The notes under the pieces are model-generated. The model was not told the origin of the DNA. It saw only the letters and a list, made by a program, of their open reading frames with translations, and did not search any database. Below are positions 29,552 to 44,318 of a stretch of DNA of 64,000 bases, in pieces. The DNA is from Pseudovibrio ascidiaceicola. Its GTDB lineage: Bacteria > Pseudomonadota > Alphaproteobacteria > Rhizobiales > Stappiaceae. The stretch covers positions 310,001-374,000 of the forward strand of contig NZ_FOSK01000004.1 in the NCBI RefSeq assembly GCF_900114245.1. The letters are read 5' to 3'. The translations under genes and the position numbers were made by a program. Positions within the stretch are counted from its first letter, which is position 1, and each line of letters starts with the position of its first letter.

Positions 29552-32239
<2,688 letters not shown>

Positions 32240-32512
32240 TTAATCCAGAGACACAACATTGGTGTTGACCGGCTGCGGAAGGGCGACCCGCTCCAATAAT
32301 CCGCAGGACTTTTTCAGTGCCTCCAGGCGGTCACATAAAGCGTGGTGCAAAGTGAGCAAAGCATCCCGCTCGCAACTGTTCTTCACGCGCTCGCTGAGTA
32401 CAAGCTGTTGCATGTACGCGAGGTTCTGAAGATCAGAGACGACGATCTGGACTTCGTCAATTTCATTCTGAAGAGTGTTTGTGGCGCTGCATGCGCATGC
32501 GGAATCGACCAT
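32240..32512 (-). CDS. Small acidic protein of the duplicated RNA/90-aa module, copy 2
   Basis: A 90-residue protein, MVDSACACSATNTLQNEIDE through to PQPVNTNVVSLD. It is the same length as, and clearly homologous to, the protein at 43802: SATNT, NLAY-QQLVLSER, ERDAL-TLH-AL and PQPV are shared without gaps. The body is predicted all-helical. No family recognised. A GAGG box lies 9 nt before the ATG at 32512. An upstream in-frame extension to 32590 is not matched in the other copy. It sits directly downstream of a conserved structured RNA (32567-32753). Confidence 0.75.
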   Translation of the reverse strand: MVDSACACSATNTLQNEIDEVQIVVSDLQNLAYMQQLVLSERVKNSCERDALLTLHHALCDRLEALKKSCGLLERVALPQPVNTNVVSLD

Positions 32513-32566: not shown

Positions 32567-32753
32567 ACCCGCTGGCGAGCGGGAGGCCAAAAACCTGACA
32601 ACGACAGGCGGGTTTATTCCCCTCCGAAGAAGGTATTGTATTCACCGCCCTCCCGCTCATAACGAAGGGTTTGCGCACTTTTGGAAAAAAGGCACAAAAA
32701 ATCCGCTAGTTAACGGGAGCGGGTACCGCGTTGTTGGAGGTTTTGGGCCTCAC
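32567..32753 (-). ncRNA. Candidate structured leader RNA, copy 2
   Basis: Transcribed leftward, this segment aligns with 43559-43740. It has a 5' GTGAGG hairpin, a CCGCT/AGCGG stem followed by ATTTTTTG, and an outer stem GAGCGGGAGG/CCTCCCGCTC (32649-32658 with 32577-32586). The outer stem encloses a TTCG-capped hairpin and a CCTG/CAGG hairpin. A TTGACA box lies 28 bp upstream of the GTGAGG, close to the 29 bp in copy 1. A short frame (MSGRAVNT...) also runs through it. The conservation pattern favours RNA structure. Confidence 0.6.
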
Positions 32754-33051
32754 CCAAGAGCATGCAACCAGATGCATGCGGTGTCAATGGTCAACGTTTG
32801 CAAGCGCGCGTTGTGTGGCGGAGGGGAGACGGTGGTCGACCCGTTGCATATTGGCAACGGTTAGGTAAATCCACATAGTATTACCCTAGGGAATGAAAGA
32901 ATCGATAAAATTCGTGCTAGTGAATATTTCTAATAATATTCAGAAGCTCTGCCTCAAAATGAGCGAGGCTTCTCTAATAATGCAAAGTTGGGTTGCAATC
33001 GTGCTTAAAGCAAAAACAAAATCCTCAAGTGAGACTACTCCTCCTCTTTCA
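32754..33051. other. Divergent region between RNA module and triple-barrel gene
   Basis: Contains the leftward TTGACA box (32782-32787) of the RNA module. Further right, AT-rich sequence precedes the rightward barrel gene, whose frame is open from 32893. No other gene is supported. Confidence 0.4.
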
Positions 33052-41118: not shown

Positions 41119-41149
41119 ATTAGTCATGCAACTCTCAAAGGATTTACAA

Positions 41150-41638
41150 ATGGCATACCGCAATAAAACCTATGTAGCCTTTGATGGGGATCGAGATATG
41201 CATTATTACAATTTAATGCGTGCTTGGAGAGATAATAAAGGTTTTTCATTTAATTTCTTCGATGCGCATGATCTCAACTCAGCCAGAGATAGCAGTCTTG
41301 AGTATTCTATCAAGAATCAACTAAGTGAGAGAATGCGAAATACAAAAGTGTTCGTTCTTTTAATTGGTGAAAGTACGCAATACTTGTATAGATTTGTAAG
41401 ATGGGAAATTGAACAAGCATTAAAGCGAAATCTGCCCATCATCGCTGTAAATTTGAACAACAAAAATGGAATTGATAGAAATCGTTGCCCCGCCATCCTT
41501 CGAGATGAGTTAGCATTACACATTCCATTCAAGCAACGTGCAATAGAGGTTGCATTAGATGATTGGCCGAAACAACACGATCATTACACGCGGCGAGGTC
41601 AGGCAGGCCCTCATTACTACAATACCTTAGCAGTGTGA
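41150..41638 (+). CDS. thsB: TIR-like (MTH538 family) protein, ThsB of a type II Thoeris-like system
   Basis: A 162-residue TIR-like MTH538 protein. It starts MAYRNKTYVAFDGDRDMHYYNLMRAW and continues with FNFFDAHDLNSARD, then VFVLLIGESTQYLYRFVRWEIEQALKRNLPIIAVNL, the order of strands and helices of ThsB sensors. In Thoeris, ThsB detects phage infection and makes an ADP-ribose-derived signal from NAD+. The ATG at 41150 has AAGGAT 7 nt upstream. It is followed 9 bp later by a membrane-macro protein, the effector type paired with TIR proteins in type II Thoeris. AT-rich compared with flanking genes, suggesting transfer. Confidence 0.82.
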   Translation: MAYRNKTYVAFDGDRDMHYYNLMRAWRDNKGFSFNFFDAHDLNSARDSSLEYSIKNQLSERMRNTKVFVLLIGESTQYLYRFVRWEIEQALKRNLPIIAVNLNNKNGIDRNRCPAILRDELALHIPFKQRAIEVALDDWPKQHDHYTRRGQAGPHYYNTLAV

Positions 41639-41647
41639 GGCCGAACA

Positions 41648-42517
41648 ATGCGGCAAGAGGTAAAGTGGTACGTCTGCTCATTTTTTACGATTGTGGGCAT
41701 AATCTGGACACTTATCGAAGCGTACAGTTTCTTTAACACACCGGAAAATCGCTGGCAGGATGCATTAATCTCGTTATTAGGAATTTTTTCCATCGCAGGC
41801 GCCATAACATATCTCATAAGCTTGTATCCAAAGGCATTTCCCCCTAAGTACTCTTTTCAGATAAAAGGTACTGAGCTAAAAATAGAATTAGTCGTTGGTG
41901 ATATATTCAAATATGCTGGACCAATAATTGTAGGAACTAATATTAACTTCATCACCTCTTTGGATGTAATTGATAAAAGAAGTATACAAGGATTATATAC
42001 TAAAAAATTCTTCGAAAGAACCACCGCAATTGACGACATGATCAATGCCCAATTAGGTGTAGGCCCTCACCCTTATGGCGCTGTTGCTCGAATCAATCAC
42101 CAGAGCAAGAATGCATTCTTTTGCGCAATCGCAGAAATAAACCCACACGGGAAAGCTAAAGGCTCCATGCCGGATTTTCTTACCGCATTAGGAGCTCTTT
42201 GGGCTTACTTGAGTGAAAAGGGCAGTAATGAAATTTACAATATCCCTGTCTTAGGGACTGGTTTCACTGGGCTTAACGCCACCCGCGAAGAAGTCATTCA
42301 CGAAATAGTCCAGTCATTCCTAGCATCACTTGCGGCCTCAAGCTATTGTGAAGGTCTAAGAATAGTGCTGTACAAAGATGACGTCAAAAATCGTGAAATA
42401 GATGTGAAACGAATTGCTGCATACATTAAACATAATTGTAATTATGCCCCTCAGATCACCAATGAAACATCCGATGAGGCAGGTCGTCCAATTTCTGCTT
42501 CTCAAGTCACAGCCTAA
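41648..42517 (+). CDS. thsA: Two-TM macro-domain protein, ThsA-like effector of type II Thoeris
   Basis: A 289-residue protein. Two transmembrane helices (about 8-27 and 39-60) are joined by a short loop. A macro domain follows from about residue 70: LVVGDIFKYAGPIIVGTNINF, then ARINHQSKNAFFCAIAEIN, and VLGTGFTGLNATREE near 200-215. Macro domains bind ADP-ribose derivatives. In type II Thoeris the TM-macro protein is thought to sense the ThsB product and disrupt the membrane. GAGG precedes the ATG and the gap to thsB is only 9 bp, so they form one operon. Confidence 0.82.
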   Translation: MRQEVKWYVCSFFTIVGIIWTLIEAYSFFNTPENRWQDALISLLGIFSIAGAITYLISLYPKAFPPKYSFQIKGTELKIELVVGDIFKYAGPIIVGTNINFITSLDVIDKRSIQGLYTKKFFERTTAIDDMINAQLGVGPHPYGAVARINHQSKNAFFCAIAEINPHGKAKGSMPDFLTALGALWAYLSEKGSNEIYNIPVLGTGFTGLNATREEVIHEIVQSFLASLAASSYCEGLRIVLYKDDVKNREIDVKRIAAYIKHNCNYAPQITNETSDEAGRPISASQVTA

Positions 42518-42573
42518 TTTAACACCTTAAACCTTTCGAGTACGAGATTTACCAAGATTCCTTTAGAGACAAT

Positions 42574-43473
42574 ATGATTGAAGAAGATCCACAAATTAGC
42601 TTTGTTTGCTCTCAATGCGACGAAAGGGTAGAGGAGTTTATTTGCTCCCTTCCTGCGTTTGACTATAGCGCTGAAGTCAACTCTGAAGGGCGAGGAATTG
42701 AGCATCTCCAAGTAACATGTCCTGAGTGTAGCAAAGCTTATGAAGTTGAGATCACCAACTTCTTTGACCAGTTTGAAGCTTCAATTCCTGAAGAACCAAA
42801 TCTCTCTGTAAGCATTTCAGTTCCCGACGATCCACACGATTATGACGAACTTGACTACGATGAGTACTTAAAATCGTATGTGCCTGAAGAACCATGGAAC
42901 AGATACATTCACTCACTTGAGCTTCTCGATGAGATGTTTGTAAATGCAGGTTCACTTCATTCTTATCCCATGTTTCGAAGAATGCTACTTCTTCAACATA
43001 TTGCAATGATGGAAGCTTACTTGTGTGATCGCTTGATAACTCTGGCAGCAGATAAGGAGGTTCAAGTTAGTCTTATAACTCAATATGACAAACTTGGAGA
43101 TCAAAAATTCCCGCTTAAGAAACTAGCTAATAACAAAGATCCACTTTTCGAACATGCGGTAACATTCCTCAAAAACCAACTTTATCACGACTTAGAGGTC
43201 GTTGATAAGTTGTATACAAGCGCGTTGGGAGCAACCCCATTCGTAGACACGGACAGTAAATCATTTTTGAAGTCCGTCATGATCACTAGACATCACTGCG
43301 TTCATCGAGATGGAAAAGATAATCAAGGCAAAGTTCTTCTTAGTATTGATAACAACTACATCAATTCAATCCGCGAACACATTTTGGGCTTAGTCCAAAA
43401 CATAGAAAAAAGGTTTGCGGACAAAATATCCTCAATCTCCAGCCAAAAGTCTTCGGCACCTCAAATATCTTAG
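42574..43473 (+). CDS. Zinc-ribbon and HEPN-like domain protein, candidate RNase in the defence island
   Basis: A 299-residue protein. The N-terminal zinc ribbon has two Cys pairs, CSQC (12-15) and CPEC (49-52). An acidic linker (about 75-105) leads into an all-helical domain with RHHCVH at 239-244, an R-x4-H motif of the kind used by HEPN ribonucleases and toxins. It lies 56 bp after thsA in the same direction and shares the low GC of the island, so it may be an accessory of the Thoeris pair or an independent defence gene. No strong Shine-Dalgarno precedes the ATG. Confidence 0.65.
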   Translation: MIEEDPQISFVCSQCDERVEEFICSLPAFDYSAEVNSEGRGIEHLQVTCPECSKAYEVEITNFFDQFEASIPEEPNLSVSISVPDDPHDYDELDYDEYLKSYVPEEPWNRYIHSLELLDEMFVNAGSLHSYPMFRRMLLLQHIAMMEAYLCDRLITLAADKEVQVSLITQYDKLGDQKFPLKKLANNKDPLFEHAVTFLKNQLYHDLEVVDKLYTSALGATPFVDTDSKSFLKSVMITRHHCVHRDGKDNQGKVLLSIDNNYINSIREHILGLVQNIEKRFADKISSISSQKSSAPQIS

Positions 43474-43523
43474 CCCCAACCGTTGCAGAAATGCATGAGT
43501 GGGGGAGGTTTTGGGTTTGGGCG

Positions 43524-43529
43524 TTGACA
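43524..43529 (+). promoter_or_regulatory. Candidate -35 box of RNA module copy 1
   Basis: TTGACA located 29 bp before the conserved GTGAGG start of the leader RNA. The opposite copy has TTGACA 28 bp before its GTGAGG (32782-32787). No good -10 hexamer is evident, so this is a tentative promoter based on conserved spacing. Confidence 0.4.
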
Positions 43530-43558
43530 GGTTGTGGGGTTGTGTTTCACACTCATAT

Positions 43559-43740
43559 GTGAGGCCTAGAAACCTCACGTCAGCGGTACCCGCTCCCGTA
43601 GTCTAGCGGTTTTTTTGTGCCTATCTTATAGTGCGCAGACCCTTTGCTATGAGCGGGAGGGCGGTGAATACAACACCTCCTTCGGGAGGGAATAAGCTCG
43701 CCTGTCTGACTCAGGTTTCTAGCCTCCCGCTCGCCAGCGA
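43559..43740 (+). ncRNA. Candidate structured leader RNA, copy 1
   Basis: Four elements in order. (1) Hairpin GTGAGG/CCTCAC. (2) CCGCT (43590-43594)/AGCGG (43605-43609) followed by seven Ts, terminator-like. (3) A 10-bp outer stem GAGCGGGAGG (43651-43660)/CCTCCCGCTC (43723-43732) enclosing hairpin CCTCC-TTCG-GGAGG (43676-43689) and hairpin CCTG/CAGG. (4) A short GC hairpin. CCCGCTC at 43589-43595 is also complementary to GAGCGGG of the outer stem, so two folds exclude each other. Copy 2 keeps every helix. The 90-aa gene follows. A 32-codon frame (43649-43747) also spans it. Confidence 0.6.
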
Positions 43741-43801
43741 GCCCTAGGAAGCTTTTTTGGCGTTGCGGATCTTCAACACCCTAGTCAGTAAGGGGATTGG
43801 A

Positions 43802-44074
43802 ATGGACGATACTGCATGCGCGCCAAGCGCCACAAACACTATCGACAATGAGTTAGATAAAGTTCTCATCACTGTTTCTGATATCGAAAATCTTGCTTAT
43901 TTTCAGCAACTTGTGCTGAGTGAGCGGATGAACCAGAGCAGTGAGCGGGATGCTTTGTTCACTTTGCATTATGCCTTGCAAGACCGCATAGAAGCGTTGA
44001 GAAAGACCTGTGGGGTTCTACAGCAGGTCGTCGACCCACAACCGGTCAGTACAACATTGACGCTTCTTGAGTAA
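43802..44074 (+). CDS. Small acidic protein of the duplicated RNA/90-aa module, copy 1
   Basis: A 90-residue protein starting MDDTACAPSATNTIDNELDK, predicted helical and acidic at the N-terminus. It aligns without gaps over its whole length with the 90-aa protein at 32240-32512, with well over half the residues identical. AAGGGG lies about 7 nt before the ATG at 43802. No family recognised. The position behind a structured RNA with a built-in terminator suggests that readthrough or unfolding controls its expression. Function unknown; a phage- or element-derived regulator is one possibility. Confidence 0.75.
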   Translation: MDDTACAPSATNTIDNELDKVLITVSDIENLAYFQQLVLSERMNQSSERDALFTLHYALQDRIEALRKTCGVLQQVVDPQPVSTTLTLLE

Positions 44075-44283
44075 CGGGTTGGGCGTGGGGCGCTGAGCCC
44101 CCTGCCCTGTTCGGCTGCGTTGGGGCGCCTCATCTCGCTCTTCTACTCGATGTATGAGGTGTGCCTTTTCACTGTGCCGGTGCAAAGTGGCGTTTCGCCG
44201 TGGGCGGAGCCTCGCACCCTTTGTCTGCCGCCCTCTCGTTTGTTGTTTGCCTGCGACCGGCAATAGCAAGCGCTTGCACCCTG

Positions 44284-44318
44284 CTGGTCTGCGGTGAGTA
44301 ACGCGCTCCGCAGGCCAG
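44284..44318 (+). ncRNA. Conserved distal hairpin of module copy 1
   Basis: CTGGTCTGCGG (44284-44294) and CCGCAGGCCAG (44308-44318) form an 11-bp stem with one G-T pair, about 210 bp after the 90-aa gene. The equivalent hairpin of copy 2 is at 32083-32118. CACCCTGCTGGTCTGCGG is nearly identical in the two copies while the loop differs. Confidence 0.45.

Follow-up and report, generated by a model that had tools for sequence, protein, structure and literature searches.

The window analyzed here, a stretch of 64,000 nucleotides within contig NZ_FOSK01000004.1 of the 5.85-Mb genome of the marine bacterium Pseudovibrio ascidiaceicola, carries two copies of a compact module on opposite strands, one at 43.5–44.3 kb (plus strand) and one at 32.8–32.1 kb (minus strand). 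The plus-strand copy begins with a promoter-like stretch at 43524–43553, recognized by its sequence, in which a TTGACA box (43524–43529) precedes a −10 region at about 43547–43553. The −10 box is poor in sequence, and transcription may start near 43559–43560, at a GTGAGG motif 29 bp from the TTGACA box. A TTGACA about 30 nt 5′ of the next element, the seqA-like site a1, recurs in other copies of the module. Site a1 (43566–43575) comprises 10 nt complementary to a single-stranded segment of the downstream RNA, a′ (43713–43722), and is followed by site b1 (43579–43583), which is complementary over 5 nt only to the loop of this RNA (b′, 43705–43711). Site b1 overlaps the anti-terminator arm of an attenuator (43582–43616) that consists of AGCGG (43582–43586), CCGCT (43590–43594), AGCGG (43605–43609), and a run of seven T residues (43610–43616). 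A branched, antisense-type RNA with a TTCG-capped arm, which resembles sRNA-Xcc1, occupies 43652–43739. Downstream of it lie the seqC-like site a2 (43744–43750), complementary to the last 7 nt of a′ with one G-U pair, and a stretch (43783–43795) in which site b2 (43783–43788), complementary to the loop, abuts a Shine–Dalgarno-like AAGGGG. An ORF for a 90-aa protein of an orphan family, helical in appearance when judged by eye, extends from 43802 to 44074, and an 11-bp hairpin, CTGGTCTGCGG...CCGCAGGCCAG, forms the module-specific 3′ end at 44284–44318.

In the minus-strand copy, the promoter-like box, a1/b1, and the attenuator lie at 32695–32787, with TTGACA at 32787–32782 (28 bp from GTGAGG) and one mismatch between a1 and a′. 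The branched RNA with its TTCG-capped arm follows at 32658–32569 (contig positions 342569–342658), the 90-aa ORF, equal in length to the first, at 32240–32512, and the distal hairpin, located by a pattern scan of the genome, at 32083–32118 (contig positions 342083–342118). The initial annotation of this DNA had described just such a pair of modules, with a TTGACA box 28–29 bp before GTGAGG, a terminator-like hairpin, a TTCG-capped branched RNA, 90-aa proteins of identical length, and an 11-bp hairpin at the distal end. This description holds for both copies, and all of these parts could be located at the sequence level, the terminator-like element being a GC hairpin with a T-run in the leader.

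When the whole window was scanned by cmscan with Rfam gathering cut-offs, only a tRNA was returned. At relaxed thresholds, the RNA at 43652–43739 matched sRNA-Xcc1 (RF02221) over the full model length with 48.4 bits (E 7.6e-8), and the minus-strand RNA matched with 52.1 bits. The gathering cut-off of this family is 53 bits, and 8 of the 20 copies in the genome lie above it. The window RNA is likely a member of RF02221, and because of this match, an outcome that the initial annotation had itself named as making the RNA a described one, it is not undescribed, as that annotation had considered possible. The models for C4 (RF01695), c4-a1b1, and isrK gave no match to the leader or the RNA at E up to 10, so the RNA is not placed in the Rfam C4 family.

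The RNA is about 77–90 nt long. A long closing stem carries two arms, a single strand leads into the 3′ half of that stem, and the loop and the 3′ strand are left unpaired as the two recognition segments. Across 40 diverse RNAs, both sides change in all 17 consensus pairs, the proportion of paired cells is 88.4% versus 67.5% after shuffling, and pair covariation reaches 0.603 versus 0.218 for shuffled controls (0 of 500 shuffles), with slid partners giving 0.17 or less. Taken singly, the window RNA shows no folding advantage over its shuffles (z −1.0), and therefore the structure claim rests on covariation. With the window RNA as BLAST query, 10 plasmid records were returned, and phage records were absent up to an E of 1; gammaproteobacterial query RNAs did match phage records.

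Although the module was originally said to occur twice, which is true of the window, it occurs about 20 times in the genome: the RF02221 model identifies 20 RNA copies at E up to 0.01. A protein search placed the small-protein family at 18 sites, 17 of which adjoin one of the 20 RNAs, the eighteenth (C41, E 2.8e-4) being weak and lacking a neighboring RNA. A DNA search found the module or its parts at 20 places, including the query itself and one hairpin-only match. The distal hairpin recurs at eight separate positions across the genome, always where a module ends downstream; these are the ends of eight of the nine modules of subfamily 1, and the ninth has a variant. The encoded proteins fall into two subfamilies that share a common core in an alignment of 24 sequences, and both are under purifying selection, with median dN/dS values of 0.22 (72 of 78 pairs) and 0.18 (54 of 55 pairs). 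Because the genome holds 20 such RNAs, the RNA pairs covary, the ORF is under purifying selection, and the hairpin sits at module ends, we conclude that the module is more than a chance arrangement.

The initial annotation did not recognize the protein family, and this held: no convincing family was found in Pfam, NCBIfam, PHROGs, or PDB sequences, and the phage and plasmid records searched gave no match. Members were found in other Pseudovibrio genomes and, among the matches listed, in two viral contigs (L159 and L214), and in none of 384 other alphaproteobacterial genomes. A weak match to FANCI_S4 (18.5 bits, cut-off 25.3) was taken as chance, and hhalign gave no support for kinship with small xanthomonad proteins or with a 72-aa Azospirillum protein. 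The RNA is more widespread. At E up to 1e-4, RF02221-like RNAs were found in 11 of 16 Pseudovibrio genomes, of which that of P. ascidiaceicola has the most (20), and in none of 9 genomes from other genera of the family or 16 other genomes of the order. They occur in 37 of 385 genomes representing a spread of Alphaproteobacteria. Two other small alphaproteobacterial genomes (G094 and G291) contain 10 each, and so multiplication of the RNA is not confined to Pseudovibrio.

The middle arm of the leader attenuator, CCGCT, can pair with either the first AGCGG, forming an anti-terminator, or the last AGCGG, forming the terminator. In a simple scan, this three-arm arrangement was present in 15 of the 20 copies of the genome (0.1 expected) and in 35 of 45 genus copies, those 20 included. 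Outside the genus it is rarer, occurring in 4 of 30 further loci and, among the matches listed, in 23 of the 98 viral loci and 26 of the 67 pattern loci. A rough block shuffle gave an expectation of 0.3 or fewer per set. Minimum-energy folding of the window leader by itself did not yield the terminator.

The loop and 3′ strand segments of the RNA vary between copies, and they vary jointly with the target sites. We compared the complementarity of each RNA to its own flanks with that to the flanks of other loci, testing the loop or the 3′ strand against the upstream or the downstream flank. These four tests were applied to each of two locus sets, one of 43 distinct genus loci (of 45) and one of 30 further loci (29 belonging to other genera, plus L097 of the genus), and in all eight tests 0 of 2000 permutations reached the own-flank value. 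A motif search extended the comparison to at least 120 viral and at least 110 genome stretches. Among the matches listed, there were 206 RNA sites in 200 loci, of which 195 lay at a sufficient distance from an end and 165 were distinct. With loop and 3′ strand taken together, 0 of 1000 permutations reached the observed complementarity, upstream and downstream each, for the 98 viral and the 67 genome sites among the matches listed; the latter include Pseudovibrio and probably some chance motif matches.

Covariation between target and RNA was measured in 40 genus leaders. For a1 with a′ it was 0.318 versus 0.124 after shuffling (0 of 500), with 91.5% of cells paired, and for a2 with a′ it was 0.418 versus 0.162 (0 of 500). 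Two of the five measures fail against shuffles for both pairings, namely pairs changed on both sides (69 and 68 of 500 shuffles for a1 and a2, respectively) and pair types (259 and 307 of 500), and the outermost pair is open in most rows. The upstream pair a1/b1 is complementary to the RNA in genus, viral, other, and Xanthomonadaceae loci, and the downstream pair a2/b2 at the ribosome-binding site is found in the genus and, as a group, in the viral loci among the matches listed. In the Xanthomonadaceae, a1 (6–8 nt) and b1 (7–11 nt) are present in all nine loci; a2/b2 is absent from all nine, whose downstream regions offer only 4–7-nt matches outside the recognition parts. Within the P. ascidiaceicola genome, the 20 combinations of a′ and loop are all distinct. 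We do not claim selection for distinctness because duplicates are as frequent as expected from random combination of a′ and loop (4 observed versus 3.86 expected by shuffling in seven genomes, where 88 of 92 RNAs were parsed and 4 were missed by the pattern).

The order of these elements is one known from phages. In the record of phage P1, the annotated series a1, b1, c4, a2, b2, icd follows this order with comparable spacing; the full layout there is a1 b1–C4–a2 b2–icd–ant, whereas the window has neither icd nor ant. With C4 of P1 and P7 (RF01695, and c4-a1b1, RF03163), the module shares the order a1–b1–terminator–RNA–a2–b2–gene, the long closing stem with its two arms, the single strand that leads into the 3′ half of that stem, the pairing of the loop with the target at the ribosome-binding site and of the single strand with the other target, and, in its viral relatives, antirepressor-type genes. 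Unlike P1 and P7, it has an orphan 90-aa protein and 20 RNA copies in one genome. The RF02221 model gave no match to the C4 RNA of P1 at E up to 10. When 60 of 240 module leaders were scored against the P1 stretch before C4, however, the mean local score was 19.38 versus 14.60 after shuffling (the highest of 200 shuffles being 17.85), a sequence similarity that suggests common descent of the attenuator.

The immunity region of satellite phage P4 lies near alpha, and two Pseudovibrio copies likewise adjoin a primase-like gene. By description, the module can also be set beside the P4 scheme of seqA, a CI RNA with seqB, and seqC, with termination (PMC4825925, in excerpt). In the IsrK/STnc1160 region of Gifsy-1, a leader sRNA and a downstream RNA are processed from a read-through transcript (same source, in excerpt), and this region resembles the module in having both RNAs, although the isrK model does not match the window leader. 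The impression recorded at the outset, that the layout recalls P4 CI and P1 C4, is thus strongly supported by target-site order, RNA topology, and the leader attenuator and is backed further by the antirepressor-type genes downstream in viral relatives.

The family to which the window RNA is assigned by covariance model has been described differently. In Xanthomonas, sRNA-Xcc1 was presented as a trans-acting sRNA, its founding member being a discrete 88-nt RNA by Northern analysis and RACE, and targets among host genes were proposed from target prediction (PMC2996969, in excerpt). Transcripts of all seven homologs were reported in Xylella (PMC12189769, in excerpt), and Xanthomonas cassettes carry the RNA upstream of symE, a toxin homolog, for which the authors suggest a mechanism different from that of symR (PMC12444791, in excerpt). 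The parts of this literature that were consulted do not mention flanking target sites. A text search of the literature, covering sources in part, returned nothing that joins sRNA-Xcc1 with an antirepressor or C4; such a link could be in print.

In viral contigs, the gene that follows the RNA is usually of an antirepressor type. Among the matches listed, 17 of 20 viral loci and 16 of 18 named genome loci scanned with Rfam gave RF02221 above its cut-off, and none gave C4. An ORF of 60 aa or more lies close 3′ of the RNA in 74 of the 98 viral sites among the matches listed. The 72 that were scanned (one duplicate start and one ORF being left out) contain Bro-N (19), P22_AR_C (14), Phage_pRha (12), AntA (10), P22_AR_N (9), KilA-N (9), and ORF6N (5) domains. 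When 30 of these 72 ORFs were sampled at even spacing, 25 were found to carry exactly one of six N-terminal antirepressor-type domains and none to carry two; the other 5 have no antirepressor domain and no family, and one of them, in L214, is the small protein of Pseudovibrio. Phage Aaphi23 has a stretch resembling one viral leader and RNA that stops immediately before ant, and Vibrio phage VPBES has an annotated sRNA-Xcc1 followed by an 80-aa ORF and then a DNA-binding protein. Two Pseudovibrio copies (L088 and L089) precede KilA-N and Rha/ANT proteins. Downstream of the window copies there is the 90-aa ORF only and no antirepressor gene. The Pseudovibrio 90-aa protein is probably a leftover or domesticated regulator of a phage or satellite.

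Two plasmids may be noted here. On Azospirillum plasmid NZ_CP039641.1 (36715–40500), the RNA is followed in a row by a 72-aa ORF and by genes for a Bro-N and a Toprim protein, an arrangement that resembles a P1 operon with a P4-like gene. In Xanthomonas plasmid NZ_CP021010.1, two IS5-family copies flank an sRNA-Xcc1-like piece, with symE on either side.

The modules of subfamily 1, both window copies included, are bare units of about 520–790 bp with surroundings that are otherwise unshared. The window module beside a LysR gene occurs at the same place in three other genomes, the similarity starting at 43475–43479, and a fourth related genome keeps only a leader fragment there. An exact empty site at the LysR side was not found, the relatives being too diverged. 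Some copies of the module are partial, having the RNA without a full leader or ORF or a truncated ORF (L051, L056, and L058) or a frameshifted ORF (L040).

Four features of the C4/CI class are present, namely a two-segment RNA, a1/b1, a2/b2, and a leader terminator with a competing arm, and mechanistic membership in this class is supported as far as these four tested features go. The module is thus most probably a C4/CI-type antisense autoregulator, a self-silencing switch, attached here to an orphan 90-aa protein, and the original interpretation as a whole is partly supported. In the mechanism that we propose, one promoter would drive transcription of the leader (a1, b1, and the terminator with its anti-terminator arm), the branched RNA of about 88 nt, a2/b2, and the small gene. 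The branched RNA would be cut out of this transcript and would use its 3′ strand and its loop to pair in trans with the a1/b1 and a2/b2 sites on newly made transcripts. Such pairing would favor the leader terminator and would cover the ribosome-binding site, blocking translation of the next gene. The small gene would therefore stay off as long as the RNA persists, but copies whose code differs would escape, giving specificity within the cell.

Every pairing partner lies within one transcript, and the covariation of a1 and a2 with a′ fits pairing in cis as well as in trans. A purely cis-acting attenuator, in which the RNA folds back on its own a1/b1 or a2/b2 and senses some condition, would account for both observations, but we judge it rather improbable. 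The layout is that of P1, whose C4 is annotated as an antisense RNA and whose target sites are separate from it, and, as noted above from excerpts, the founding sRNA-Xcc1 is a discrete RNA (PMC2996969) and all seven Xylella homologs are reported to be transcribed (PMC12189769). Least probable of all is the role proposed for sRNA-Xcc1, that of a trans-acting sRNA for many unrelated host genes, because the variable unpaired parts match the flanks of the RNA itself, locus by locus, and a general regulator would not need such matches. Control by HrpG/HrpX, which Chen reportedly described for sRNA-Xcc1 in 2011, would suit this role. The published target predictions also speak for it (PMC2996969, in excerpt).

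The small protein might instead be toxic and the antisense RNA its antitoxin. This toxin–antitoxin-like reading is compatible with a C4/CI-type switch, and we hold it to be possible, if tentative. It agrees with the position of the RNA upstream of symE in Xanthomonas cassettes (PMC12444791, in excerpt), with the symE genes near the RNA on plasmid NZ_CP021010.1, with the cell-division inhibitor Icd at this place in P1, and with purifying selection on the 90-aa protein; however, the protein matches no toxin family, and several copies have lost the ORF or the leader. Those losses (the partial copies L051, L056, and L058 and the frameshift in L040), together with the related genome that retains a leader only at the place of the window copy, are also what decaying remnants of phage satellites without present function would leave. 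We consider such decay unlikely in view of a dN/dS of about 0.2, the retained complementarity, and the conservation of the window copy at the same place in three other genomes.

With the C4/CI-type switch, a widespread Rfam family that has so far been treated as a trans-acting, virulence-linked sRNA gains a proposed mechanism that can be tested directly, and antisense regulation of this type would extend to phages, to plasmids, and to chromosomes across many Proteobacteria. These private codes are candidate orthogonal RNA switches, and 20 switches in one genome invite the question whether related elements within a cell are heteroimmune to one another. It is conceivable, if improbable, that the about 20 C4-like RNAs of Pseudovibrio, each with a two-part code of its own, act in trans on incoming phages or satellites bearing the same leader code. 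Part of that idea, and just as doubtful, is that they form an RNA-based immunity library made from captured phage switches, some of them beside defense genes.

The ORFs around the modules were compared with PADLOC models. There were 137 context ORFs, of which 15 were left out (9 overlapping modules, 5 others, and 1 swapped for a real gene on the opposite strand), and the control set comprised 123 of 190 control ORFs. PADLOC gave 99 families for 123 context ORFs versus 27 for 123 control ORFs, where many models match one ORF; among the 25 families listed for context ORFs are Thoeris, a type IV restriction enzyme, and AbiTii. Because many PADLOC models match one ORF and 25 families are listed, we do not claim an enrichment of defense genes around the modules. 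HTH_36 was found in 4 of the 123 module-context ORFs.

The modules of subfamily 2 often lie inside longer repeated segments. Around them, L422 and L424 each have a 709-aa primase-like ORF, accompanied in L422 by a GmrSD nuclease and in L424 by a weak GIY-YIG match; L423 has an integrase and an HTH_36 protein. For the 709-aa ORF, Pfam gave only DUF6371, below its cut-off, and "primase-like" is a reading of its sequence. The islands L422, L423, and L424 may be satellite-like. In the window, the region immediately to the left of the module boundary (about 43475) holds a Thoeris pair, with a ThsB TIR protein at 41126–41638 and a ThsA macro protein at 41648–42517. A 299-aa ORF without a confident family accompanies the pair, the whole region spanning 41126–43473, and the Thoeris genes fall outside the stretch that is matched in the three other genomes.
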